A DNA stretch of 64,000 bases from Pseudomonadota bacterium (GTDB lineage Bacteria > Pseudomonadota > Gammaproteobacteria > Burkholderiales > Rhodocyclaceae): assembly GCA_018240785.1 (NCBI GenBank), contig JAFEFC010000002.1, positions 1 to 64,000 of the forward strand. Direction: 5' to 3'. The notes under the pieces were generated by a model. That model was given only the letters and a program-made list of their open reading frames with translations, searched no databases and was not told the DNA's origin. Positions 1 through 56,968 of the stretch are shown here, piece by piece. Both the position numbers and the translations under genes were made by a program. How positions within the stretch are numbered: position 1 is the stretch's first letter; every line of letters begins with the position of its first letter.

Positions 1-170
1 TATGGTTAGGTCGACACGGTTCGGGGTGACAGTCACAGGGTGCGGGACCAGCGCCGCAGCGGCATTCTGCAGAAGGCGGCTGTGGTCTACCCGGTCACGT
101 AGGAGTGGTGATTAACCCAGGGGGCAATTCCAGATGTCGTCAGGGGGTTAAATCTTCGTGTCGCTTGACA
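1..170. mobile_element. probable end of an insertion sequence (IS21-like ends)
   Basis: No protein can be read here, and hsdS homology starts abruptly at about base 171. Read leftwards on the minus strand from base 170, the sequence begins TGTCAAGCGACACGAAGATT. It also carries an inverted TTAACCC/GGGTTAA pair (about 112-118 and 145-151). Ends beginning with TGT and containing short repeats are typical of IS21-family elements. The transposase genes would lie left of the window. The family assignment is inference; a simple rearrangement is the alternative. Confidence 0.4.
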
Positions 171-1085
171 AAAGTCACCCCCTGCATGGAAAACGGCAAG
201 GCCGCAATTGCATCGGGCCTGATCGGGGGTGTCGGTTTTGGCTCTACCGAGTTCCACGTACTCAGGCCAGACACTCGCCTGATACTGGCGGAATACCTGC
301 TTCATTTCGTTCGGCAACGGCAATTCCGTGAACAGGCCAAAGCAGCCTTTGTCGGAACAGGAGGGTTGCAGCGTGTGCCCCCTGACTTCTTCAAGCGCGT
401 CAAGCTGCCGCTGCCTTCGCTCCCTGAGCAGCGGCGAATTGTGGAGTCCCTGAGGCACGTCGCGCCGCAGCCCTTTCGCAGCGCGATCGACCAAGCAAAA
501 CGCCTGCAATCCGCCCTGATCACCGAAGCCCTCTCCGGCCGCCTCACCGCCACCTGGCGCGAGCAGCACGCGCAGGCCCTGGCCGAGGCCGCCCGTGAGC
601 GCGATGCGCGGCTCGGGGCGCCCGCGCCCCGGGTGACGGTGCGCATCACCAAACACGCCCCCGCCGAGCGCCGCACCGACCTGGCTCGCCCGCGCCGGCA
701 GGCGGTGATCGAGCAGCTTTCCAGTTTTCAGCACGCGGTGTGGAACACGCTGCGCTTCGAGTGGCGTGGCGCGGTGCTGGCCGACGACCCGGCGGCGTTC
801 GAGGAGTTCTGCACCAGCCCGCAGACCGCCTGGCGCCTGGAAGGCTTTGCGGCCGGGCGTGAGCAGGTGCGGCGCGCCCTCGACCAACTGGCCGCGATGG
901 GCCTGATCCGCAAGGTGAGCCTGCCGCGTCCCGATCCCACCACCGGCCGCACCGAGTACCTGACCGCTTTCCGCCCCCTGCGCGAGGCCGAGTACGGCAA
1001 CCGCCCCGAAGAAGACACGGCGCTGGCCGATGCCGAGCGGCTGGGGCGCGAGCTCGAGCGCCGCCGGGCGCCGGAGGCGCGTTGA
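171..1085 (+). pseudogene. hsdS: type I restriction-modification specificity subunit HsdS, 5'-truncated
   Basis: HsdS recognises the DNA target in type I restriction-modification complexes. The visible part has the end of a target-recognition domain (KVTPCMENGKAA, then GVGFGSTEFHVLRP). Next is the conserved junction LPLPSLPEQRRIV that begins the central helical spacer, followed by a longer C-terminal extension with winged-helix-like sequence. At roughly 300 residues it lacks the whole first recognition domain, and the frame has a stop at 27-29. A GTG at 105 could open the frame, but its first residues look like non-hsdS sequence. The break coincides with a putative IS end at base 170, so I treat the gene as inactivated. 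hsdM and hsdR are not in the window. The stop is directly followed by the ATPase start. Confidence 0.7.
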
Positions 1086-2993
1086 ATGCGGCTGCGCTAC
1101 CTGCACCTGTCGCACTACCCGCCGCTGGCCGATCTGGCGGTGGCCTTCAGCCCGCGCGCGCCCTGGGCCGCGTTCGAACCGCAGGGCGCGCCGGCCCGGC
1201 TGGCCATCCACTTCGTCATCGGGCAGAACGGCAGTGGGAAGAGCCACCTGCTGCGGGCGCTGGCCGAAAGCTTTCTGGCCCTGGCCGACGAGCGCCTGCC
1301 GCGCAGCCCGCTGAGCCTGATCTACGAACTGGGCCGCCCGGGCGAGCCGGGGCACCGCACGCTGATCTTCGACTGCCCCGGCGAGGCCCACGCGACCACG
1401 CTGTGGCAGGCAGAGGGCTGGGCCTTCCCCGACACGACGGACCGCGAAGCCTTCGCCCAGGCGATCGCCTACCTGCGCACAGTCGAGCGCACGCTGCAGG
1501 GCACGCTGGCCGTGTTCAAGCGCCGCATCGCCCGGGGCGACTACCCGCAAAGCGTGCCCGATGCGCTGCCGCGCGCGCTGCTGGCCTACACTTCGGGCTG
1601 GATGGAGCCATGGCGCGCCGCCTGGCAGCCGCCCGTGGATGGCGAGGCGCTGAATGGGGTGACGCAGTCGCCCGACCATGACCCCAGCCAGGAGCGCCCT
1701 CCCGGCTGGACGGAGGAGGACGAGGCCAGCGTCGTGAACGATGGCGGCCACTTCGGCGACGAGACCGCCCGCACCATGGCCCCGGCCGAGGCGGACAGCG
1801 CGCCGGCCGACCTGTTCCGCCGCCCGCTGCTGCTGGAGCCGGTGATGCTCACCGCCGCGCTGCTGGCGGTGGCCTTGCAGGCGGCCGAGGCGCGCCGCCA
1901 AGGGCAGGCCGATGAGGCGCTGGCGGACTTGTTCCGCAAGGCCGGCTGGCACCGCCTGGTGGGCGTGCGCCTACGGGTGAACCTGGACCGCGCCCAGGGC
2001 GCGCCGCGCGCCTTGGTCGAGCGCATGCACGACGCCATCCGGCTGGCCGGCGAGTGCCTGGCCGAGCCTCATCCGGGCAAGGCGCTGCGCAGCCTGTACT
2101 TCGACCTCGACGGGGCGCTGCCAGCGAGCACCGAACCGCGCGACGCCCAGCGCTTTGAAGGCTTGACCACTCAGGGCCAAGCCTTGCATGTCCTGCTGGG
2201 CGAGAAGGGCGACACCGCGTTCGAGCGCTTTGGCGCCTTGCTGGGCTGGTGGCGGCACGGGGTGCTGGAAGACATCGAGCTCTTTATCCGCCGCAACGAC
2301 AAGCCCGACGAGGAGAGCCTGAGCGACCTGAGCGACCCGGGCGTGCTGCGCCTGAGCGAGTTCTCCGACGGCGAGCGGCTGGTGCTGGCGCGCTGGGCGC
2401 TGTTCCACCTGCTGGCAGGGCAGGACGACGCGCTGCTGTTGCTGGACGAGCCCGAGACCCACTTCAACGACGCCTGGAAGCGCGAGATCGTGCAGGTGGT
2501 GGACGCGGCTATGGGGGCCGATGCCAGCCAAGTGCTGATCGCCACCCACTCGGCCATCGTGCTCTCCGACGTGTTCGACGAGGAGGTGGTGCACATTCGC
2601 AAGGTGGACGGTCAATCCACCGCCGAGGCCGTGTCGGACCACACCTTCGCCACCGACCCCAGCGCACTGATGATGACCGTGTTCGATGCCGAGGACAGCA
2701 TCGGGGCGCGAGCCCAGCGGCGCATCGAGGCGTTCTTACGTGCCGCTGCCCAGAAAACGGAGCCCACGTCGGATGACGTGCGGCAATTGCAAGCGCTGAT
2801 TCGCCGCCTGGGTACGGGCTTCTACCGCACCGAGCTGCAAACCCTGCTCAACCGCTGGCAGCAGGCCCCCGACCTGCGCGCCATCGAGCAGGTGATCCCC
2901 TCCCTGCAGTCGGACGCGCTCAAGGACGAACTGCGCGCGCTGATCCTCAAGGCTGCGGATGCAAAGGGCGGCCCGGAGGGCAGCGATGCTTAA
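1086..2993 (+). CDS. restriction-system-associated AAA/ABC-type ATPase
   Basis: This 635-residue P-loop ATPase starts at the base after the hsdS stop. Walker A is IGQNGSGKS (residues 45-53). A signature-like LSEFSDGERLVLARWALF precedes the Walker B LLLLDEPETHF (about 450), and an H-loop follows (IATHSAIVL). This layout, with a long low-conservation insert between the halves, is that of RecF/OLD/PtuA-like defence ATPases. The protein resembles the NCBI family named restriction system-associated AAA family ATPase. It overlaps the following HNH gene by 8 bases, so the two are probably co-translated and act together. A role in anti-phage defence is inferred from the hsdS and nuclease neighbours. 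Confidence 0.8.
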   Translation: MRLRYLHLSHYPPLADLAVAFSPRAPWAAFEPQGAPARLAIHFVIGQNGSGKSHLLRALAESFLALADERLPRSPLSLIYELGRPGEPGHRTLIFDCPGEAHATTLWQAEGWAFPDTTDREAFAQAIAYLRTVERTLQGTLAVFKRRIARGDYPQSVPDALPRALLAYTSGWMEPWRAAWQPPVDGEALNGVTQSPDHDPSQERPPGWTEEDEASVVNDGGHFGDETARTMAPAEADSAPADLFRRPLLLEPVMLTAALLAVALQAAEARRQGQADEALADLFRKAGWHRLVGVRLRVNLDRAQGAPRALVERMHDAIRLAGECLAEPHPGKALRSLYFDLDGALPASTEPRDAQRFEGLTTQGQALHVLLGEKGDTAFERFGALLGWWRHGVLEDIELFIRRNDKPDEESLSDLSDPGVLRLSEFSDGERLVLARWALFHLLAGQDDALLLLDEPETHFNDAWKREIVQVVDAAMGADASQVLIATHSAIVLSDVFDEEVVHIRKVDGQSTAEAVSDHTFATDPSALMMTVFDAEDSIGARAQRRIEAFLRAAAQKTEPTSDDVRQLQALIRRLGTGFYRTELQTLLNRWQQAPDLRAIEQVIPSLQSDALKDELRALILKAADAKGGPEGSDA

Positions 2994-4071
2994 GCCCATC
3001 CACCGCGTGGCCTGCTCACCGGCCCTGGCCGCCTGCCAGCAACTGATGCGGCGCTTTGCGTTATGGTTGTGTGATCAGCATGTGTCCGGTACTTCGGTCA
3101 CGCAGGCTAATTTACAGAGGAACATGGGCAGCGCCATCGAAGGCGACTGGCTGTGGCAGTTGCTCGCCGGCAGCACGGGCACCAAGGCGCTGTTGGACAA
3201 GGCAAAGCGCATCGCCGACCTGCCGCTGGCTGAAAAGAACGGGCTCCAGCAGTGGATTCACGCGGTGAATTCGCTGGTGCAGCACTTTGGCCCGACACCG
3301 CCCGCCTCCTTGCCGGTGAATCCACCTAATGGGTGGCGTGCTCGGGACCAGCGTTGGACCGTCTTCAAGGACGTGATGGTGGCGTTTTACGAGGAGGGTT
3401 TGCATGGTCGCGGCGGCCTACCTTACGCCGCCAACGGCGCCCCCACGGGCGATGTCGCGCTGCGCGTGAGCTACGACCAATTCGTGCGCGAGTTTCGCGC
3501 CGCGCACCGCCTCGATCCCCACCCGAATGCCCGCGACGTCTGCGTGCTCTGTGGCGGGCCATTGGTGCTGCCCGCCGTGGACCACTGGCTGGCCAAGACG
3601 GCGTTCCCGCTGCTGGCCGTGTGCGCCGACAACCTGATGCCGATCTGCGGGGAATGCAACGTTGCGCCGCAGAAAGGCCAGAAGGATGTCCACACCGGCG
3701 GCGCGTTCTCCGATTGGTTCCACCCCTATCTGCGCCATGCCAACGGGGCAATCCGACTGCGCTACGACGAAGCCACGCCGAGCGTTCGCGTCGAGAGCGC
3801 AACACCTGCCGATGTCGTCAAGGTTCAGAATCTGAACGACCTGCTCAACCTTTCCGAACGCTGGACGCGGGAGTTCAAAGCCGAGTACCGGCGCCTGCAG
3901 CGCGAGGCGCAGCGCCGACAAATTGGCAACGTGCAAGCGCTTCAGCAGCGCCTCATGGAGTACCGCCAGGATCTATCGGCAGCCGAGCCGCACCACGAGA
4001 TTCATGCGCTGCTGGCCGAAGCACTGCTTGATCCCGCACGCTTGCAGGCATTCGCGCAGATCACCCCGTAG
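2986..4071 (+). CDS. HNH endonuclease-like protein paired with the ATPase
   Basis: This 361-residue protein carries a zinc-type HNH/beta-beta-alpha-Me core. The first knuckle is CVLC (186-189), then DHW (199-201), an Asn at 216, and a second knuckle CGECN (221-225). The start at 2986 is chosen because GGAGGG lies five to six bases upstream; an in-frame start at 2959 has no comparable site. The ATG lies inside the end of the ATPase gene, indicating translational coupling. An ATPase plus HNH nuclease pair is the composition of the Septu (PtuA/PtuB) defence system, but the relation to Septu is inference. The first third is poorly recognisable, and a stretch near 3056-3120 looks more AT-rich than its surroundings. 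Confidence 0.7.
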   Translation: MLKPIHRVACSPALAACQQLMRRFALWLCDQHVSGTSVTQANLQRNMGSAIEGDWLWQLLAGSTGTKALLDKAKRIADLPLAEKNGLQQWIHAVNSLVQHFGPTPPASLPVNPPNGWRARDQRWTVFKDVMVAFYEEGLHGRGGLPYAANGAPTGDVALRVSYDQFVREFRAAHRLDPHPNARDVCVLCGGPLVLPAVDHWLAKTAFPLLAVCADNLMPICGECNVAPQKGQKDVHTGGAFSDWFHPYLRHANGAIRLRYDEATPSVRVESATPADVVKVQNLNDLLNLSERWTREFKAEYRRLQREAQRRQIGNVQALQQRLMEYRQDLSAAEPHHEIHALLAEALLDPARLQAFAQITP

Positions 4072-4286
4072 GCCGCTGTAACGCTCACCAGTGCTCGTAA
4101 GCTCGGGCGGCACGTTTCCGTTGGTAAGCTACCGATACACAAGGCATCAGTACGCAAGCAGTACAGTCACCAGCTTCACGTGTCTGATCCTAACTACGCT
4201 AACTTACTGATTATTAAATACAGTGACCTTCACTCGATTGCGCACAGCTTCTCTTTTCTTTCAATAGCTTATTGACTTAAAAGGAA
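4072..4286. other. AT-richer non-coding tail of the genomic island
   Basis: No credible gene is seen in these 215 bases. The sequence is clearly less GC-rich than both sides and ends exactly where the tRNA-Met fragment begins. It includes a GTAC-N7-GTAC element at about 4151-4165. Such stretches next to an att core often hold integrase arm-type or excisionase sites; that reading is inference. Confidence 0.4.
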
Positions 4287-4332
4287 ACTCATAATCCTTT
4301 GGTTGCGGGTTCGAGTCCCGCAGGGCCCACCA
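4287..4332 (+). repeat. 3' fragment of tRNA-Met(CAT): island attachment site (att)
   Basis: The 46 bases read as the 3' half of an elongator tRNA-Met: anticodon loop CTCATAA, variable region, T arm GCGGG/TTCGAGT/CCCGC, acceptor strand AGGGCCC, discriminator A and encoded CCA. The 5' half (acceptor strand GGGCCCT, D arm, 5' anticodon stem) is absent. The sequence before ACTCATAATCC does not pair, so this is not a functional tRNA. Integrases that use tRNA 3' ends leave such a direct repeat at the far end of the element. The intact gene should lie at the other end, left of the window. Confidence 0.8.
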
Positions 4333-4343
4333 ATCGCGTCACA

Positions 4344-4375
4344 CGAAACGCCGACCTCGACGGGTCGGCGTTTCG
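4344..4375. terminator. strong hairpin terminator between tRNA-Met remnant and gloA
   Basis: A perfect 13-bp stem (CGAAACGCCGACC at 4344-4356 with its complement at 4363-4375) has a 6-base loop and is followed by CCTTT. It lies just behind the tRNA-Met 3' end, so it is probably the original tRNA terminator. It also faces the end of gloA, where it could act from the other strand. Confidence 0.7.
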
Positions 4376-4406
4376 CCTTTCGGGCTGCGAAACCCTCGAC
4401 CGACGC

Positions 4407-4823
4407 TCACCAGACGCCGACGTTGGGCATCGAGGCCCAAGGCTCCTGGGCCGGCAGCGGACCGCCCTTCTGCAGCAGCTCGACCGAGATCAGGTCTGGC
4501 GAACGGACGAAGGCCATGTAGCCGTCGCGTGGCGGGCGGTTGATCGTGATGCCCGCGTCCTGCAGGCGCTTGCAGGTCGCGTAGATGTCGTCGACCTGAT
4601 AGGCGAGGTGGCCGAAATTACGCGCGCTGCCGTAGTCCTCCACGTCCCAGTTGTAGGTCAGTTCGACCTGCGCGTCCTCGTCGCCCGGGGCGGCCAGGAA
4701 GACCAGCGTGAAGCGGCCCTTCTCGTGCTCGGTGCGACGGACCTCATGCAGGCCCAGGGTGTTGTAGAACTTGAGCGATGCATCGAGATCGCGCACGCGA
4801 ACCATGGTGTGAAGATATTTCAT
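4407..4823 (-). CDS. gloA: lactoylglutathione lyase (glyoxalase I)
   Basis: GloA converts the hemithioacetal of methylglyoxal and glutathione to S-lactoylglutathione in cytosolic methylglyoxal detoxification. The 138-residue protein is a single glyoxalase/VOC domain starting MKYLHTMVRVRDL. The expected metal ligands can be placed at H5, E54, H72 and E115. The substrate-facing NTLGL and the FGHLAYQVDDIY strand are conserved. The length suits the bacterial single-domain, Ni-type enzymes. It is the first core-genome gene after the island boundary and lies 72 bases downstream of sodC on the same strand. Confidence 0.9.
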   Translation of the reverse strand: MKYLHTMVRVRDLDASLKFYNTLGLHEVRRTEHEKGRFTLVFLAAPGDEDAQVELTYNWDVEDYGSARNFGHLAYQVDDIYATCKRLQDAGITINRPPRDGYMAFVRSPDLISVELLQKGGPLPAQEPWASMPNVGVW

Positions 4824-47398: not shown

Positions 47399-48844
47399 AT
47401 GACAGACACCACGATGCCGGCCGCCGGCGCCAACCCTGCCACCGATGCTTCCGCCAAGGCCTGGTCCGGCCGCTTCACCGAACCCGTCTCCGACCTCGTC
47501 AAGCGCTACACCGCCTCCGTGTTCTTCGACCAGCGCATGGCGAAGCAGGACATCCGCGGCTCGCTCGCGCACGCGAAGATGCTGGCCAGGCAAGGCATCA
47601 TCGGCGTGCAGGACCTCGCCGACATCGAGCGCGGCATGGCGCAGATCGCCGGCGAGATCGAGCGCGGTCAATTCGCCTGGAACCTCGACGACGAGGACGT
47701 GCACCTCAACATCGAGAAGCGCCTCACCGCGCTGGTGGGCGATGCCGGCAAGCGCCTGCACACCGGGCGCAGCCGCAACGACCAGGTCGCCACCGACATC
47801 CGCCTGTGGCTGCGCGACGCGATCGACCAGATCCTGGCGCTGATCGCCGACTTCCAGAAGAACCTGCTGGATGTGGCCGAGGCCAACGCCGCCACGCCCA
47901 TGCCCGGCTTCACCCACCTGCAGGTCGCGCAGCCGGTGACGTTCGGCCACCACCTGATGGCCTACTACGAAATGAGCCGGCGCGACAGCGAGCGCTTCGC
48001 CGACTGCCGCCGCCGCGTCAACCGCCTGCCGCTGGGCAGCGCGGCGCTCGCCGGCACCAGCTACCCGATCGACCGCGAATTCGTGGCGGCAGAACTGGGC
48101 TTCGACGAGGTCTGCTACAACTCGCTCGACGCCGTCAGCGACCGCGACTTCGCCATCGAGTTCTGCGCCGCCAGCGCGCTGCTGATGACGCACCTGTCGC
48201 GCCTGTCGGAAGAGCTGATCCTTTGGATGAGCCCGCGCGTGGGCTTCATCGACCTCGCCGACCGCTTCTGCACCGGCAGCTCGATCATGCCGCAGAAGAA
48301 GAACCCCGACGTACCCGAGCTGGTGCGCGGCAAGACCGGCCGCGTCAACGGCAGCCTGATCGCGCTGCTGACGCTGATGAAGGGCCAGCCGCTGGCGTAC
48401 AACAAGGACAACCAGGAAGACAAGGAGCCGCTGTTCGACACCGCCGACACGGTGATCGACACGCTGCGCATCTACGCCGACATGATCACCGGCATCAGGG
48501 TCAAGGCCGAGGCGATGCGCGGCGCGCTCAGCCAGGGCTACGCCACCGCCACCGACCTCGCCGACTACCTGGTGAAGAAGGGCCTGCCCTTCCGCGACGC
48601 ACACGAAGCGGTCGCCCTGGCGGTGCGCGCGGCCGACGTCAAGGGCTGCGACCTGCCGCAATTCACGCTCGACGAGCTGCGCATCGCCATGGCGCACGTA
48701 CCCGGCGCCGCCGAGCGCCTGGGCGACGACGTGTTTGCCGTGCTGACGGTGGAAGGCTCGCTCGCTTCGCGCAGCCACGTCGGCGGCACCGCGCCCGAGC
48801 AGGTGCGCGCCGCCATCGCGGGTGCGCGCCAGCGCCAGGGCTAG
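47399..48844 (+). CDS. argH: argininosuccinate lyase
   Basis: ArgH releases arginine and fumarate in the last step of arginine synthesis. The 481-residue protein has [29 protein letters not shown] and the fumarase-superfamily signature [19 protein letters not shown]. The start at 47399 is chosen because the frame upstream runs through the algZ coding region on the other strand. A TATACT at 47297-47302 could be a -10 element. The kinase gene follows three bases after the stop. Confidence 0.96.
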
Positions 48845-48847
48845 GCG

Positions 48848-50137
<1,290 letters not shown>

Positions 50138-50285
50138 TCGCCGACCGCAACGCCAATTTGTCGGGGATTTTGACACGTTCTGCGCAAAGCGCTCTGGCCG
50201 GAAGGTAGCCACTCCTTCAAAATCATTGGCTTATCGGCCAGATTCACATCAGGCGTGAAATTTGCATCATCCCCGGGCAGGAAAA

Positions 50286-50314
50286 GGGCCCGAACCCGGG
50301 CCCATGGATATAAT
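50286..50314 (+). promoter_or_regulatory. inverted repeat next to a -10 element, upstream of the Tat-protein gene
   Basis: A perfect GGGCCCG/CGGGCCC hairpin (50286-50292 and 50297-50303, 4-base loop) is followed by a consensus TATAAT at 50309-50314. No convincing -35 is present; the repeat occupies that place, so it may be an operator. It could instead end transcription of the kinase gene, though no T run follows. Confidence 0.35.
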
Positions 50315-50350
50315 CAGGGGAAAGGACTCAGCGCTCCCCCGGGGAACAAA

Positions 50351-50926
50351 ATGGAACAGGCCCAATCGACGAATTCGACCGAGCAGCGACGCAGGCTGCT
50401 GAAGGGAGCCTTGGGGGCCTCCACGGTAATGGGCATGGGATACAGCAGCGCTGCCCTGGCCTCATTCCAGTGCATCACGAGCACGACACCGTATCCCTCC
50501 AGTGGCCCCGGCTTCAAGAAGTCGATCAACACCACTTCCAACTGGGCATGGTTGAAGTTGCAGGTTTTCAGCACCAACAAGAGCAATTCGACCAATAGCT
50601 GGAAGGCCGTCAAGATTCCAAACGGGACCGACCCTACGGTGGCAAACGGGGACGCCGGCACGAGTGTCTATTTCTTCGACAATTTGGCCACAACACCGCT
50701 TCTCTATGCTGCCGGGAGCAGGTCGCTGCCGAGCGGCATAAAGGTCAGCTCCGCGGAATCAGGTAATTACGTTTACGTTATCGTTTATTTCAAGGTTGAC
50801 GGCTCCATCGCCGGTTTCTTCCCAACCTATACGCCGATAACGGGCTCGGACTATCCCGCTCAAGGATCGTGCCTCACTTCACTGAACCCCAATCTCGTTC
50901 AGACGAATATTTTCTATGGCGGCTGA
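50351..50926 (+). CDS. Tat-exported Ser/Thr/Asn-rich protein, first gene of the HPr-rel-A-type cassette
   Basis: I recognise no domain. The 191-residue protein opens with a twin-arginine signal (EQRRRLLKGALG, then a hydrophobic stretch ending AALA). The mature part is rich in Ser, Thr, Asn, Gly and Tyr, with two cysteines (C41, C174) and a C terminus NIFYGG. Base use appears noticeably less GC-rich than in its neighbours. I start at 50351, where GGGGAA precedes ATG; the upstream in-frame stretch looks non-coding. The 3' end overlaps the PqqD-like gene by 11 bases, so it belongs to the cassette. A role as the modified substrate is inference. Confidence 0.75.
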   Translation: MEQAQSTNSTEQRRRLLKGALGASTVMGMGYSSAALASFQCITSTTPYPSSGPGFKKSINTTSNWAWLKLQVFSTNKSNSTNSWKAVKIPNGTDPTVANGDAGTSVYFFDNLATTPLLYAAGSRSLPSGIKVSSAESGNYVYVIVYFKVDGSIAGFFPTYTPITGSDYPAQGSCLTSLNPNLVQTNIFYGG

Positions 50927-51218
50927 ACCAAGGGCGTTGCCGCCCGCAGAAATCTCTCCGCATCAATGGCTGCAACAATACTGCCCGGTCCTCGACGGGC
51001 AGTTTCTTTTTCTGGATCCGATTTCGTGGCGCACCTTCCAGTTGTCCGAAGGCGCCGTGACGGTGCTGCAGGAGACTGCGACTGCCATCGAGTTGGGCCG
51101 TTTCAGCGACTTTCTGGTGGAAGTGCAGGAAGCTGGGGGCTGGCCACCGGAACTCGAGCCGCTTGCATGGTCGTTGAATTCGTTGATCAGATCCGACGCG
51201 TTCCGGCCTGCTGAATGA
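50916..51218 (+). CDS. HPr-rel-A system PqqD-family protein
   Basis: The 100-residue protein resembles the PqqD-like chaperones that hold peptide substrates for modification enzymes; NCBI names a related family HPr-rel-A system PqqD family peptide chaperone. The core reads VLDGQFLFLDPISWRTFQLSEGAVTVLQ in separate strands and helices. It overlaps the exported-protein gene by 11 bases and the kinase gene by 4. No radical-SAM partner is present, unlike classical PqqD contexts. The partner is presumed to be the adjacent kinase or its target; this is inference. Confidence 0.75.
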   Translation: MAAEPRALPPAEISPHQWLQQYCPVLDGQFLFLDPISWRTFQLSEGAVTVLQETATAIELGRFSDFLVEVQEAGGWPPELEPLAWSLNSLIRSDAFRPAE

Positions 51219-52084
51219 TCGCGACGCCATACCGCTTGCTCGACGTCGGTGCGGCCAGGCTGGCCGTGGCATCGCCGATCGAAGGCTTTCATGCGCACCT
51301 CGACCGGGTCTATCCCCACCACGAGCCGATCGCCGATCCGGTTTTCGCCGATGCCCGCGTTGCGCTGCTGCCCGGCTCGAGATGGCGTGTGCGCGGTCGC
51401 CAGGTCGTGCTGTGGGCCGATGGCCAGCGTCCGTTCGAGCCCTACCCGTACGACTGCGCGCTGCCGCTGTTCGAATGGGGCAGCAATTACCTGCTTTCCC
51501 AGCGCCTGAACGCCTACCTTCTGCTGCACGCCGGCGTGGTCGCGCGCGGCGATCGCGCGCTGATCCTGCCGGCGGCACCCGGCTCGGGCAAGACCACGCT
51601 GACCTGCGCGCTGCATCTGGCCGGGTGGCGCTTCCTGTCGGACGAGTTCGGCGTCGTCGACATGGGCAGCGGGGAGCTGCTGCCCATGGTGCGACCGGCA
51701 CCACTGAAGAATCGCTCTATCGACGTCATCGGCAGCCGTCCGGGCGCCGTGCTCGGGCCATTGTTCCCTAAGACGCGCAAGGGCGACGTGTCGCACTTCG
51801 TGCCCGACCGCGACAGCTTCGTCGCCCGCCACCGCCGTGCGACGCCCGCGCTGGTGGTGTTCCCGCGCTTCCAGGCCGGCGCCGCGCTGCAATGCACGCC
51901 CGTGCATCGTGCGCAGGCGGCGATGCGGATCGGCCTGAACAGCTTCAACTATCAGGCACTGGGCCCGCTCGGCTTCCAGGCCGCGGTCGCGCTGGCGCGG
52001 CGCACGGCCGCCTTCGAGCTGGTCTACGGCGATCTCGACGACGCGATCGCCCACATCGAAACCCTGTTCGAGGGCGCGCCTTGA
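51215..52084 (+). CDS. HprK-related kinase A
   Basis: The 289-residue protein is related to the C-terminal kinase domain of HPr kinase/phosphorylase. It has LLLHAGVVARG (the HprK-like block with H105), the P-loop PAAPGSGKTT (119-128) and LSDEFGVVD (141-149), matching HprK catalytic positions. The N-terminal sensor domain of HprK is missing and no HPr gene lies nearby, so HPr itself is unlikely to be the target. It overlaps the PqqD-like gene (ATGA) and the nucleotidyltransferase gene (TTGA) by 4 bases each. Substrate unknown. Confidence 0.85.
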   Translation: MIATPYRLLDVGAARLAVASPIEGFHAHLDRVYPHHEPIADPVFADARVALLPGSRWRVRGRQVVLWADGQRPFEPYPYDCALPLFEWGSNYLLSQRLNAYLLLHAGVVARGDRALILPAAPGSGKTTLTCALHLAGWRFLSDEFGVVDMGSGELLPMVRPAPLKNRSIDVIGSRPGAVLGPLFPKTRKGDVSHFVPDRDSFVARHRRATPALVVFPRFQAGAALQCTPVHRAQAAMRIGLNSFNYQALGPLGFQAAVALARRTAAFELVYGDLDDAIAHIETLFEGAP

Positions 52085-53187
52085 GCAGCAACGGCCGGTC
52101 CGACATCGCACTGCTGATGCGCGGCGTGCGCGAGCCGCTCGACATCGACGAAGCACGCTGGGAGCGGCTGCTGCGCATCGCGCGCGCCAGCGGCCTGCAT
52201 GCGCGACTGGCCGTCGCGAACCTGGACAGGACGAACACGACCGACGTCGTGCGCCGCCATCTGCTGTCGTCGGCGCGCATCGCCGCCTATCGCGCACAGA
52301 TGGTGCGTGCCGAGCTGTTCCACCTCGCACCGCTCGTCACCGACGACTTCCCGGTGATCGTGCTCAAGGGCGGCGCCTACATCCTGCAGGGGCGCGCGCT
52401 GGCAGAAGGGCGTTTCGTGTCCGACGTGGACCTGCTGGTGCCCAACGCGCACCTGCGCGCGATGGAAAGCCGCCTGCGGGCGGCGGGCTGGCAGCCGGAG
52501 AAGCTGGACCCTTACGACGAGCGCTATTACCGCGACTGGAGCCACGAGACGCCGCCGATGCGCTTTCCCGGCCACAGCCTGGAAGTGGATCTGCACCACG
52601 CGATCACGCCGGTGACCGGCTCGCTGGCCTTCGATCCGGCCAGCCTGTTCGCGCGCAGCGAACCGATACCCGGCACGCCCTTCCGCGTGCTGTGCGCCGA
52701 AGACCAGGTGCTGCACGCCTGCCTGCACTGCTTTCACGACGGCGAACTGGACCTGCGGGTGCGCGAAGTGGTCGACATCGACGGGCTGCTGCGGGCTTTC
52801 GGCGCGCGCGAAGGATTCTGGGACCGGCTGTTGGCGCGGGCCGCGGAACTGGCGCTGCAGCGCCCGCTCTGGTACGGACTGCATTTCGCGCGGACCTGGC
52901 TCGAATGCCCGGTGCCGTCGGAAGTGTGCAATGCGCTGCCGGCTCCGTCCGTCTTGAGCCGCACGCTGATGGACGCGCTCGTGCCGCTGGCGATGCTGCC
53001 ACCGGATCCGGACTTTCCGCCGCCCATGCGGGCGCGGATTGCACGCACATTGATGCGCGCCCGCTATCACCTGCTGCGCATGCCGCTGCACCTGCTGGTG
53101 CCCCATCTGGCACGCAAGACCCTGCGACGCCTCAAGGCAAGGCTGGATCGCAGGGCGGAAGCGCCGGCGGAAGACGGCACCCCCTGA
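52081..53187 (+). CDS. nucleotidyltransferase family protein (NTP_transf_5-like)
   Basis: The 368-residue protein has the family block VIVLKGGAYI (about 93-101), the metal-binding SDVDLLV (114-120) and a third acidic site in LEVDLHH (about 169-175). These fit the uncharacterised nucleotidyltransferase family PF14907. I start at TTG 52081, which shares TTGA with the kinase stop; an ATG 12 codons later is the alternative. This enzyme class transfers nucleotides to proteins or small molecules; the target here is unknown. It ends the four-gene cassette. Confidence 0.82.
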   Translation: MSSNGRSDIALLMRGVREPLDIDEARWERLLRIARASGLHARLAVANLDRTNTTDVVRRHLLSSARIAAYRAQMVRAELFHLAPLVTDDFPVIVLKGGAYILQGRALAEGRFVSDVDLLVPNAHLRAMESRLRAAGWQPEKLDPYDERYYRDWSHETPPMRFPGHSLEVDLHHAITPVTGSLAFDPASLFARSEPIPGTPFRVLCAEDQVLHACLHCFHDGELDLRVREVVDIDGLLRAFGAREGFWDRLLARAAELALQRPLWYGLHFARTWLECPVPSEVCNALPAPSVLSRTLMDALVPLAMLPPDPDFPPPMRARIARTLMRARYHLLRMPLHLLVPHLARKTLRRLKARLDRRAEAPAEDGTP

Positions 53188-53200
53188 GCGGCGCCCCCTG

Positions 53201-53224
53201 AGGCTCGGGCAGACACCCGAGCCT
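53201..53224. terminator. hairpin between the HPr-rel-A cassette and grxD
   Basis: AGGCTCGGG (53201-53209) pairs perfectly with CCCGAGCCT (53216-53224) around a 6-base loop. It lies between converging genes. No strong T run is present, so termination is likely but not certain. Confidence 0.6.
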
Positions 53225-53235
53225 GCGCAAATCCC

Positions 53236-53556
53236 TTACACCACGCCGGCGTCCTGCAGCATCTGCTGCAGCTCGCCGTTCTGGTACATCTCGCGCATGA
53301 TGTCGCTGCCGCCGACGAATTCGCCCTTGACGTAGAGCTGCGGGATGGTCGGCCAGTTGGAGTATTCCTTGATGCCTTGGCGGATCTCGTCGTCGGCAAG
53401 CACATTGACGGCGAGCACGTCGGGCACACCGCAGGCCTTCAGGATCTGCACGGCGGCGGACGAAAAGCCGCACTGCGGGAACTGCGGCGTACCCTTCATG
53501 TAGAGAACCACGTCGTTGCTGGTGACCTGATCGCGGATGACGTCCTGGATGCTCAT
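53236..53556 (-). CDS. grxD: monothiol glutaredoxin GrxD
   Basis: The 106-residue monothiol glutaredoxin has the CGFS active site (QCGFS, Cys at 29), the glutathione-binding [16 protein letters not shown] and the terminal [10 protein letters not shown]. These proteins carry [2Fe-2S] clusters shared with BolA partners. The start at 53556 ([11 protein letters not shown]) gives the usual length; the frame upstream overlaps prmC and is not coding. It follows prmC by 82 bases, the common hemA-prfA-prmC-grxD order. Confidence 0.95.
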
Positions 53557-53638
53557 CTGATGCCTCTGAAAAACTGAGTGAATTAGTCGGGTAATTTTAG
53601 GGAGCGCGCCAGCCGGCGTCAACCGCGCGCCATCGATC

Positions 53639-54505
53639 TCACGCGCGTCCCAGCCACCGTCCACCCGACACGCGGTCGATGCCGGCAAGATCCTTCCACG
53701 ACTGGATGGAAGCGAAGCCGGCATCCGCCAGCAGGCCGCGCACCGCGAACGCCTGGTCGTAGCCGTGCTCGCACAGCAGCCAGCCGCCTGCTTCCAGATA
53801 CCGCGCCGCGCCAGCGACGATCTCGACCAGGTCGTCGAGCCCGGCCGGCCCGGCCGCCAGTGCGGTGCGAGGTTCGAAGCGCAGGTCGCCCTCCTCGAGG
53901 TGCGGGTCGGCGGCGGCGATGTAGGGCGGGTTGGACACGATGAGCTCGAAGCGCTCCTCGCCCAGCGCAGAAAACCAGTCGCTCTGCACGAAGGACACGC
54001 TGGCGCCGAGGCGCGCGGCATTGGCCATCGCCACCCACAGCGCCTCGCGTGAACGGTCGAGCGCGATGACGTCGGCTTCCCCCAGCTCCAGCGCCAGGGT
54101 CACCGCCAGCGCGCCGCTGCCGGTCCCCATGTCGAGCACGCGCACCTGGCGGCGGCCGCTCATGTGGGCGAGCGCCAGTTCGACGAGCAGCTCGGTATCG
54201 GGCCGCGGGATCAGCACCGCCGGCGTGACCATGAAGTTCCGCCCGTAGAACTCGCGCTCACCGGTGAGGTAGGCCACCGGCTCGCCCGCCGCGCGGCGCT
54301 CGACCAGTTCGCGGAAACGCGCCCAGTCCTCGGCATCGAGGATCTGCTCGGGCCAGGCCGCCAGACGCGAGGCCGGGCACTGCAGCACATGGCGCAGCAG
54401 CACGCGCGCATCCATGACGTCGATGCGCTGGCGCGCCCACGCCAGGGCGCGCGCGATGTCGGGCAGCTCGTCCGGCAGGCCGTCGCTCCTCGTCGGCTCG
54501 TTCAT
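53639..54505 (-). CDS. prmC: release factor glutamine methyltransferase
   Basis: PrmC methylates the glutamine of the GGQ motif in release factors. The 288-residue protein has the SAM site [16 protein letters not shown] and the catalytic [14 protein letters not shown], preceded by a helical N-terminal domain. It overlaps its substrate's gene prfA by 4 bases (ATGA), so enzyme and target are co-expressed. Confidence 0.95.
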
Positions 54506-55581
54506 TCTTCGGCCAGGGCTGCGAGCTGGTCGGCCTGGTGCTCCAGCGTCAGTGCCGCGATGAGTTCGTCGAGATCGCCCGCCATCACTGCATCCAGCTT
54601 GTATAGCGTCAGGTTGATGCGGTGATCGGTGATGCGCCCCTGCGGGAAGTTGTAGGTGCGGATGCGCTCGGAGCGGTCGCCGCTGCCGACCAGGCTCTTG
54701 CGCGTCGCGGCCTCGGCGCTCTGCTGCGCGCGCACCTTGGCATCATGGATGCGCGCCGCCAGCACCGACATCGCCTGCGCCTTGTTGCGGTGCTGCGAGC
54801 GGTCATCCTGGCACTCGACGACGATGCCGGTGGGGACGTGGGTGATGCGCACCGCCGAATCGGTCTTGTTGATGTGCTGACCGCCGGCGCCCGAGGCCCG
54901 GAAAGTGTCGATGCGCAGGTCGGCCGGATTGATATCCACCATCGCGACTTCGTCCGCCTCGGGCAGCACTGCCACGGTGCACGCCGAGGTATGGATGCGC
55001 CCCTGGGTTTCCGTGACCGGCACGCGCTGCACGCGGTGCCCGCCGGACTCGAACTTCAGCCTGGAATAGGCGCCGGCGCCGACGACGCGCGCGATCACTT
55101 CCTTGTAGCCGCCGAGGTCGGATTCGCTGGCCGACACGATCTCCAGCTTCCAGCGCTGGCGCTCGGCGTAGCGCGCGTACATTCTCAGCAGGTCGGCGGC
55201 GAACAGCGCCGCCTCGTCGCCGCCGGTGCCCGCGCGGATCTCCAGGAAAAGGTTGCGCTCGTCATTGGGGTCGCGCGGCAACAGCGCGCGCTGCAGTTCA
55301 CCGTCGAGCTCGGCGATGCGCGCCTCTCCGGCCTGCAGCTCAGCCTCGCCTAGCTCGCGCATGTCAGGGTCGTCGAGCAACTCGCGCGCGGTGTCGCAAT
55401 CCGCCTCGGCCTGGCGGTAGGCGCGATAGAGCAGCACCACCGGCTCGATCTCCGCGCGCTCGCGCGACAGCTCGCGGAAGGCGTTCATGTCCTGCGCCGC
55501 CGTCTCCGCGGCGAGCGTGCGGTCGAGCTCTTCCAGGCGGCTGGCGAGGTGTTCGAGTTTGTCTCGGATGCTTTGCTTCAT
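54502..55581 (-). CDS. prfA: peptide chain release factor 1
   Basis: RF1 ends translation at UAA and UAG. The 359-residue protein has a codon-recognition domain and the [15 protein letters not shown] catalytic loop, whose Gln is methylated by PrmC. I start at 55581 ([12 protein letters not shown]); an in-frame extension upstream is rich in Asp/Pro and does not fit RF1. hemA lies 74 bases upstream. Confidence 0.95.
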
Positions 55582-55655
55582 CGTTTCGGGATCTGGGTCG
55601 GGGTCGCGACGCGGCAACCACGCCCGCGGCGAAAGGCGATTCGAGGCCTGCGCGG

Positions 55656-56909
55656 CTAGCCGTTGCGCGGCAGATTGAACAACTGCTGCACCAGGCGTCC
55701 GGCTTCGGCCTGCGCCTCGCCCTCGGCATGGTTCAGGAAGCGCGAGGGTCCATGCATCAGCTTGTTCATGAGGCCATGGGACAGCGCCTCGAGCACCCGC
55801 TGCGGGTCCTCGCCCTTGGCGAGCAGGCGCAGCGCGCGCTCCATTTCGTGCTGGCGCAAGGCCTCGGCGTGCTCGCGCAGCGCGCGGATCGTCGGCACCG
55901 CATCGCGCGCCTCCATCCAGTGCAGGAAGCCGTCGACACGGGTGTCGATGATCTGCTCCGCCTCCACCACCGCCTGCTGGCGCGATTCCATGCCGGCGTC
56001 GACCACTTGCGCGAGGTCGTCCACCGTGTACAGGAACACATCATCGAGTTCGCCGATCTCGGGCTCGATGTCGCGCGGCACGGCGAGATCCACCATCACC
56101 ATGGGGCGGTGGCGGCGCGCCTTCACTGCGCGCTCGGCCATGCCCAGGCCGACGATGGGCAGGGGCGCGGCGGTACAGGACACCACCACGTCGAAGCGCG
56201 GCAGCATGTCGCCGATCTGGTCGATGCGCATGGTGCCGGCACCGAAGCGCGACGCCAGCAAGGCAGCGCGCTCGGCGGTGCGGTTGGCCACCATCATCGA
56301 CTTCGGCCTCGCGCCGGCGAAGTGCGCCGCACAGAGTTCGATCATCTCGCCGGCGCCGATGAACAGCACGTGCTGGTCGGAGACGCGCTCGAAGATGCGC
56401 TCGGTCAGATGCACCGCGGCCGCGGCCATCGACACCGTGTTGGCGCCGATCGCGGTGGTCGAGCGCACTTCCTTCGCCACCGCGAAGGTGTTCTGGAACA
56501 GCTTGTGCAGCAAAGTACCGACCGTGCGCGCCTCTTCCGCGCGGCGCGCGGCTTCCTTCACCTGGCCGAGGATCTGCGGCTCGCCCAGCACCATCGAATC
56601 CAGCCCGCTGGCAACGCGGAACACATGGCGGATCGCATCGCGCTGCGGGTAGGCGTACAGGTAGGGCGACATGTCGTTCAGCGACAGGTCATGGAAGCGC
56701 GCCAGCCAGTCGGCGGCGTGCTGCGGGTGTTCCGCGGCGAAGTAGAGCTCGGTGCGGTTGCAGGTGGAGAGGATGGCGGCCTCGCGCACCGAATCCGCAC
56801 GCGCGAGATCGTGCAAGGCCTGTCCCATGTGCTCGGGCTGAAACGCCACCCGCTCGCGGATCGCAAGCGGTGCGGTGTGGTGGTTCAGGCCAAGGGCGTA
56901 GAGCTGCAT
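55656..56909 (-). CDS. hemA: glutamyl-tRNA reductase
   Basis: HemA reduces glutamyl-tRNA to glutamate-1-semialdehyde, the committed step of the C5 heme pathway. The 417-residue protein opens [19 protein letters not shown], has the catalytic cysteine in [11 protein letters not shown], an NADPH-binding domain with [10 protein letters not shown], and a dimerisation tail. The start at 56909 follows a candidate promoter at short distance. Confidence 0.95.
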
Positions 56910-56939
56910 GCGTGACAGGGGACGACCAATCGGGAGCGC

Positions 56940-56968
56940 ATTATAGCACCCCGCAAGCCGCACAAAAA
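56940..56968 (-). promoter_or_regulatory. candidate hemA promoter with extended -10
   Basis: On the minus strand TGCTATAAT ends at 56940, that is a consensus TATAAT at 56945-56940 preceded by the extended-10 TGN. The -35 region (TTTTTG at 56968-56963) is weak, as expected with an extended -10. Transcription would start about 25 bases before the hemA ATG. Confidence 0.5.

Follow-up and report, generated by a model that had tools for sequence, protein, structure and literature searches.

Within the 64,000-nt stretch of DNA analysed here (hereafter the window; contig JAFEFC010000002.1 of assembly GCA_018240785.1, from a member of the Rhodocyclaceae), four open reading frames (ORFs) on the forward strand form a compact cassette at 50351..53187, in which successive genes overlap by 11, 4 and 4 bases. 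They potentially encode an exported protein (P0001), a protein like PqqD or a RiPP recognition element (PqqD/RRE-like; P0002), an HprK-related kinase (P0003) and a PF14907 transferase (P0004), and their coordinates agree exactly with the four-gene set described in an earlier reading of the letters alone (the sequence-only reading). The exported gene accompanies the kinase gene almost without exception, and sequence comparisons indicate that its product is very probably the dedicated target of the cassette. By analogy with known peptide-tailoring systems, it is also fairly probable that a serine of this whole matrix protein would be (poly)phosphorylated, and would then receive a nucleotidyl or sugar group, before export by the twin-arginine (Tat) route. 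The features of the cassette are as follows.

50351..50926 (+), P0001, exported candidate substrate (class II), 191 amino acids (aa); no Pfam or NCBIfam family at cut-off
50387..50461 (+), putative twin-arginine (Tat-like) signal RRRLLKG ... AALA, residues 13-37 of P0001; R13 and R14 constant throughout 29 class II rows first picked by a pattern with two basic residues
50867..50881 (+), C-terminal motif S-C-L-T-S, residues 173-177 of P0001, proposed modification site; class II alignment and shuffle enrichment
50916..51218 (+), P0002, PqqD/RRE-like, 100 aa; relatives match TIGR04353, profile matches lasso RREs, structure model
51215..52084 (+), P0003, HprK-related kinase A, 289 aa; TIGR04352 at 338.6 bits
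51578..51601 (+), kinase P-loop PGSGKTTL, residues 122-129 of P0003; sequence and 25-row alignment
52081..53187 (+), P0004, PF14907 nucleotidyltransferase-fold protein, 368 aa, TTG start; 180.2 bits

Partnership of the exported gene and the kinase gene

Kinases scoring above the cut-off were found in 59 of 150 genomes of the host family (60 loci) and in 61 of 398 genomes of the phylum. Gene neighbourhoods were compared at 141 loci, comprising that of the host genome itself, the best 30 of 60 from the family, the best 30 from the phylum (61 genomes above the cut-off) and the best 80 of 193 from a named collection, which spans Burkholderiales, methanotrophs, Thiobacillus, Magnetococcales, Zooshikella, Alteromonas, two planctomycete metagenome-assembled genomes and others. 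Some organisms occur twice among these loci (e.g. L006/L107, L017/L116, L039/L084 and L041/L121), and the motif and promoter counts below therefore use 92 proteins at 50% identity.

The PqqD-like gene adjoins the kinase gene in 132 of the 141 loci. An exported protein was recognised in 133 loci (134 hits) by a twin-arginine signal profile, whose training set consisted of proteins picked by a pattern with two basic residues at the expected place, so that the invariance of the twin arginines is partly by construction. The exported gene lies 100-1000 bases before the kinase gene in 132 loci and on the other strand in L048, and 131 of the 134 hits have a size of 130-300 residues. The eight loci without a profile hit include L035, where the protein was found by pattern, L007 and L066, where the gene is apparently cut by the contig end, and L069 and L100, which are too near a contig end to tell.

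In the host family, profiles of the two exported families (A2 and A3) hit 59 of 150 genomes, which are exactly the kinase carriers, and none of the 91 kinase-less genomes, in which a very divergent copy may escape since the search scored at most 23-25 candidates per genome. Of the 59 kinase-positive genomes, 14 contributed rows to these profiles, so that their hits are by construction, which does not apply to the 0 of 91. The 78 profile hits collapse into 60 distinct places, of which 59 have a kinase gene within 2.5 kb, and a hit stands beside the kinase at 59 of the 60 kinase loci, in 58 genomes. The exception (G050:C65; L183, frame 2-4796) is a 1,597-residue, surface-protein-like frame with a class I-like PGYWK ... 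ALL domain; as it is located away from any cassette, this domain seems to exist outside the system. Fisher tests for the co-occurrence of the kinase with the exported gene, and with XrtA and PrsR (see below), ignore relatedness, and the counts themselves are given as the evidence.

The sequence-only reading had proposed to check whether a Tat-signal-type protein regularly precedes the PqqD-like/kinase/nucleotidyltransferase trio, and counted a trio found mostly without one, together with a protein free of enzyme-dependent modification, as its refutation. Since the exported gene regularly accompanies the kinase (59 of 60 family loci, none of 91 kinase-less genomes and 133 of 141 loci), gene order leaves that proposal standing and lends its genomic part strong support. 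A chance neighbourhood of the exported gene was rejected by the same contrast of 59/60 with 0/91.

The partnership could also be explained if the exported protein were an unmodified structural partner, the enzymes making a small molecule or modifying an unlinked peptide that serves the same matrix. This would be compatible with a promoter type that the cassette has in common with PEP-CTERM genes, and with three loci (L050, L051 and L057) where the kinase has neither an exported nor a PqqD-like gene next to it. However, no comparably constant partner was found in a census of the 80 named loci, where the next most frequent cluster is present in 20 (ORFs under 80 aa being left out), and the exported gene is the one found beside nearly all kinase loci of the host family. 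Moreover, the presentation of ribosomal peptides is a known role of RRE-type proteins. An unmodified partner is thus considered unlikely.

At one locus (L125:5880-6745), the usual set is preceded by an additional exported protein and an additional PqqD-like gene, perhaps a duplicated substrate-carrier pair on one kinase.

Terminal serine motifs of the exported proteins

Ser, Thr and Asn abound in P0001, whose own sequence suggests a Tat-exported protein, with a twin-arginine signal, RRRLLKG, that closes with an AxA-type end at residue 37. Across loci the exported proteins are hypervariable, and identity to P0001 is 16-43% among class II rows. At E<=0.1, no Pfam or NCBIfam family was common to more than one of 34 class I rows, and no NCBIfam family beyond TAT_signal_seq (2 rows) was common to more than one of 29 class II rows; the Pfam scan of class II was that of P0001 only. 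The class labels are regular expressions made in this analysis, and 13 of 133 proteins fit neither class.

In class I, the motif C-x-x-(P)-S-x-x-x-S-G-N-x-S stands right after the signal and is followed by P-G-Y-W and A-A-L-L-N-A; its first two serines are each present in 42 of 43 rows. Class II proteins have a Cys behind the signal and the motif [ST]-C-[WL]-x-S near the C-terminus, followed by a tail of 1-16 residues (29 rows). As these 29 rows were selected by the C-terminal motif, its invariance, including that of C174 and S177, is by construction. P0001 belongs to class II and ends in SCLTS-LNPNLVQTNIFYGG. The terminal serine motif is the best-conserved part of most mature exported proteins.

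Among the 92 non-redundant exported proteins, a C-terminal [ST]CxxS was present in 30 (mean of 0.95 in shuffled sequences) and an N-terminal C..SxxxS in 45 (2.9 in shuffles). Either motif occurred in 74 of the 92 (3.8 in shuffles, with a maximum of 11 in 500 shuffles), and the common form S-[CGA]-[large]-x-S was found at either end in 55 (3.0 in shuffles). In a FastTree tree of the 141 kinases, one change is enough to split the 77 loci of class I from the 43 of class II, the 13 unclassified ones being omitted. Both classes are present within the host's own family.

These motifs may have a purely structural role, as a disulfide or a turn, in which case any modification would take place at variable Ser or Thr residues, as in general O-glycosylation. 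All aligned class II rows do share two cysteines, one of which belongs to the selection motif, and the Ser/Thr/Asn-rich composition of P0001 would also suit this explanation. On the other hand, the motif is terminal in two classes that otherwise differ, much like the sites at or near a terminus that are used by the kinases of lasso peptides and of linear polyphosphorylated peptides (LPP) described below, which makes a structural role of the S-C-W-x-S and C-x-x-S-x-x-x-S motifs rather improbable.

It has also to be considered that the enzymes might act solely on the leader (signal) region or its very end, as a quality or export checkpoint, so that phosphorylation would time Tat export and disappear with the signal peptide, and the mature protein would stay unmodified. 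The signal region is conserved (P, TL and S[RG] positions), a PqqD-like protein would be expected to bind a leader, and a serine occurs near the end of the signal in 27 of 29 class II rows. Set against this, the motif serines of the mature part reach 42 of 43 rows (two positions in class I) and 29 of 29 (class II, by construction), whereas the in-signal serine reaches 67% and 62%. Known relatives, moreover, modify the core and not the leader, according to the parts consulted of the lasso (PMC9266682) and LPP (PMC13381572) papers. An export checkpoint of this kind therefore has a small probability.

Properties of the three enzymes

P0003 matches TIGR04352 (HprK_rel_A) with 338.6 bits for a curated cut-off of 200, which bears out the kinase identity proposed by the sequence-only reading. 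Residues H105, K126, D143 and E144 are invariant across 25 kinase rows and all are present in P0003. As regards the sensor domain, which the sequence-only reading took to be lacking, the analysis covered the Pfam HprK domain, which was not matched by P0003; in comparison with the HprK/P of HPr, about 60 residues around the P-loop and the adjacent Asp motif, and only those, align with a solved HprK (1jb1, E 0.0032), and nothing found here points to HPr as the substrate. Plasmid-borne spread of the kinase was set aside, since relatives were found on just 4 of 72,556 plasmid records at E<=1e-5; these are three records of Vibrio alfacsensis and one of Sphingomonas parapaucimobilis.

P0004 matches PF14907 (NTP_transf_5) with 180.2 bits for a gathering cut-off of 31.2, in line with the nucleotidyltransferase assigned earlier. 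The KG, the DxD and a third Asp reach 99-100% conservation across an alignment of 126 transferases and are present in P0004. The DxD and third Asp of PF14907 are presumably the catalytic residues. A relative of P0004 is present in 126 of the 141 kinase loci, two of them on the other strand. Among the 15 loci where it was not seen, four run off the contig and 11 were fetched with more flank, which placed the transferase further on in 6 of them.

In some loci without an adjacent transferase, the kinase gene is followed by a gene for a TPR-sulfotransferase, located directly 3' of the kinase at L184:4362-6623, L186:8955-10646 and L193:8873-10648; PF13469 was found in 3 of 3 proteins scanned. This could be a possible extra tailoring step.

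The PqqD-like identity given to P0002 in the sequence-only reading holds for its family and less directly for the protein itself. P0002 matched no NCBIfam or Pfam model at E<=1, TIGR04353 included, whereas 42 of 44 aligned relatives match TIGR04353 (PqqD_rel_X) at E<=0.01; by position and alignment, P0002 is thus at most a divergent homologue. It is 51% identical to a same-genus relative in L029. The profile of the PqqD-like family matches the lasso B1 proteins TfuB1 (E 1.3e-5) and TbiB1 (E 1.5e-4), and the predicted structure of P0002 consists of beta-strands followed by three helices (pLDDT 82).

Comparison with known systems

The kinase and the PqqD-like protein place the cassette in the HPr-rel-A system, P0003 belonging to TIGR04352 and the relatives of P0002 to TIGR04353, a PqqD family peptide chaperone. 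The listed descriptions of both models name no substrate or activity. A literature search returned no paper on HPr-rel-A, on HprK-related kinases or on HprK with exosortase, and no description of this cassette was recognised from titles and the starts of abstracts; most subscription papers and preprints being outside its scope, this silence is weak evidence of absence.

The closest parallels are found among peptide natural products. In the sections consulted of PMC9266682, the C-terminal Ser of lasso precursors receives one or more phosphates from the kinases PadeK, ThcoK and SyanK, and PsmN accounts for hexoses attached to this phosphoserine, either directly or once it has been nucleotidylated. 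Phosphorylated lasso peptides (paeninodin, and pseudomycoidin with PsmK and PsmN) have, like the cassette, an HprK-like kinase and an enzyme of the nucleotidyltransferase family, together with an RRE (B1), to which the RRE-like P0002 would correspond. Their target is a terminal serine, and the serine motif of the cassette is likewise terminal. Unlike lasso peptides, the cassette has as its candidate target a whole protein, 130-300 residues long in 131 of 134 cases, with a twin-arginine signal. A Pfam scan of the ten proteins that fill 47402-56963 together with the cassette revealed neither a macrolactam synthetase (C) nor a B2 protease; given the lack of a cyclase and a leader protease among these ten neighbours, a lasso cluster was rejected.

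LPP clusters of Bacillota (LppA, LppK, LppB, LppS, LppD and LppN) resemble the cassette in combining an RRE, an HprK-like kinase and an NTP transferase. As described in the parts consulted of PMC13381572, LppK, which is encoded together with the RRE LppB and the NTP transferase, places phosphate on Ser3 of a linear peptide; LPP itself has a linear peptide substrate, a SipW-like leader peptidase and an exporter, and the atypical clusters that led to its discovery are embedded in capsular polysaccharide loci. Unlike LPP, the cassette has a full-size candidate substrate with a twin-arginine signal and is mostly proteobacterial. The words 'Proteobacteria', 'Pseudomonadota' and 'twin-arginine' are absent from the main text of PMC13381572. 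By comparison with LPP clusters, the candidate substrate has 191 aa, and no SipW-like peptidase or MsbA-like exporter is present among the ten neighbouring proteins.

A PrsR/sigma-54 type promoter

The region upstream of the cassette contains two further features.

50159..50175 (+), PrsR-box-like 17-mer TGTCGGGGATTTTGACA, of the PEP-CTERM regulator box 'motif 1' type; matrix from 28 relatives
50251..50266 (+), sigma-54 -24/-12-like promoter AGGCGTGAAATTTGCA, 75 nt past the box; 9 of 12 consensus positions

With a matrix built from 28 relatives, TGTCGGGGATTTTGACA was the top-scoring site of the window on both strands. In AGGCGTGAAATTTGCA, the 9 of 12 sigma-54 consensus positions were counted by eye, and GG and GC are in register. 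Upstream of 90 non-redundant exported genes, sigma-54 sites of at least 9/12 were found in 55 cases (7.0 expected from dinucleotide shuffles) and of at least 10/12 in 36 (1.5 expected). A k-mer count made free of any motif showed TTTACA as the top hexamer before the sigma-54 sites (32 of 55, where simple shuffles would give 2.9). The regulator box that Haft and colleagues described for PEP-CTERM genes has the same 3' end, TTTACA, and stands on average 63 nt before a sigma-54 site, as given in the portion consulted of PMC1569441. The same portion defines the regulon by a 17-nt box ending in TTTACA, located 32-92 nt before a GG/GC sigma-54 site, with PrsR in the genome. By its sequence, the cassette falls under this definition, with a box ending in TTGACA (one base off), a spacer of 75 nt and, in the genome, a PrsR of 739.5 bits.

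The window and its relatives yielded a box pattern with 5 matches in the host's own genome (4.7 Mb) and 0 in a backwards control. Three of the other 4 boxes precede ORFs with a PEP-CTERM tail. A sigma-54-like site lies 63-74 nt after three of the four, and none meeting the pattern was found at L202. PrsR was present in 57 of 59 cassette genomes and in 12 of 91 others, the two cassette genomes without it being 82% and 79% complete. An XrtA-like exosortase (set cut at E below 1e-50, a threshold set in this analysis) was present in 54 of 59 and 12 of 91, respectively. Where PrsR and the kinase share a contig (29 genomes), the two are at most 10 kb apart in 13. Exopolysaccharide and PEP-CTERM-type neighbours recur in the named loci, with a chain-length determinant in 15 of 80; their names come from reading sequences rather than from a family scan.

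The cassette is similar to the PEP-CTERM/exosortase PrsK-PrsR-sigma-54 regulon in its promoter architecture, and co-occurs with an XrtA-like exosortase and PrsR. Unlike PEP-CTERM proteins, P0001 lacks the PEP-CTERM tail and is accompanied by its own putative modification genes. The promoter of this type, together with the co-occurrence with PrsR and XrtA, is new here and goes beyond the sequence-only reading. Judging from these sites, the cassette appears to be switched on together with floc/biofilm matrix genes.

At another box of the host genome, L204 (G000:C7:145805-145821), a perfect sigma-54 consensus, TGGCACACTGTTTGCT, follows 63 nt on, near an NtrC-like regulator; the ORF after this box has no PEP-CTERM tail in the stretch read.

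Proposed mechanism

Since the three enzyme types of lasso and LPP tailoring stand together here, the following mechanism is proposed. PrsR and sigma-54 would turn the operon on alongside PEP-CTERM and exopolysaccharide genes. The N-terminal leader of the exported protein may double as its Tat signal; the PqqD/RRE-like protein would bind this leader and hand the protein to the HprK-related kinase. The kinase would then add one or more phosphates to the conserved serine by a large residue (S-x-[F/W/L/M]-x-S), either just after the signal in class I or at the C-terminus in class II (in the SCLTS of P0001, Ser173 or Ser177). The PF14907 protein might attach a nucleotidyl or sugar group onto the serine phosphate, and the finished protein, one per locus, would leave via Tat and act in the extracellular matrix.

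Several observations weigh against this mechanism or parts of it. As regards the Tat signal, P0001 has no match to the models PF10518 or TIGR01409 at E<=1, and the curated models match few of its relatives (class I, 1 of 34 in Pfam and 1 of 34 in NCBIfam; class II, 2 of 29 rows with NCBIfam TAT_signal_seq). Both strict motifs are missing in 18 of the 92 proteins, several by small departures only, and the cassette of G050 has a low-complexity partner that carries a twin-arginine signal and lacks the serine motif. The serine conserved near the end of the signal in class II is absent at that column in P0001, and its presence in 27 of the 29 rows makes further modification sites possible. The concordance of exported class with kinase phylogeny could reflect an operon inherited as a unit. 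The transferase was not found in 5 of the 11 loci fetched with more flank, so that its step would not be universal, and the corresponding LPP enzyme, LppN, seemed inactive in a heterologous host (PMC13381572, part consulted). Finally, 35 of the 90 upstream regions had no sigma-54 site of score 9.

If the mechanism is true, enzymes so far known from peptide natural products act on whole secreted proteins, in a widespread proteobacterial system whose substrate is defined and whose site and regulator are predicted. Two NCBI families for which no paper was found would gain a function, mass spectrometry would have a precise target, and the floc/biofilm matrix of environmental bacteria would have a new component. 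A further idea, which we hold to be a long shot, is that the phosphoserine serves as a covalent anchor, the kinase and the PF14907 enzyme building a phospho-sugar or nucleotide-sugar linker that joins the protein to exopolysaccharide. This would represent a third route of protein-to-matrix attachment, beside exosortase (PEP-CTERM) and lipoprotein anchoring, within the same regulon, and the TPR-sulfotransferase variant would be its sulfated version.

Flanking genes

The flanks of the cassette are ordinary and encode an argininosuccinate lyase, a Ser/Thr kinase with a cNMP-binding domain, a glutaredoxin, PrmC, RF1 and a glutamyl-tRNA reductase, the domains being taken from the Pfam scan of the ten proteins and the gene names deduced from them. 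The glutaredoxin gene is located just downstream of the cassette (window 53236-53562, reverse strand), and 7 of the 80 named loci (L087, L093, L096, L103, L111, L130 and L137) likewise have a glutaredoxin gene at a distance of up to about 3.4 kb.

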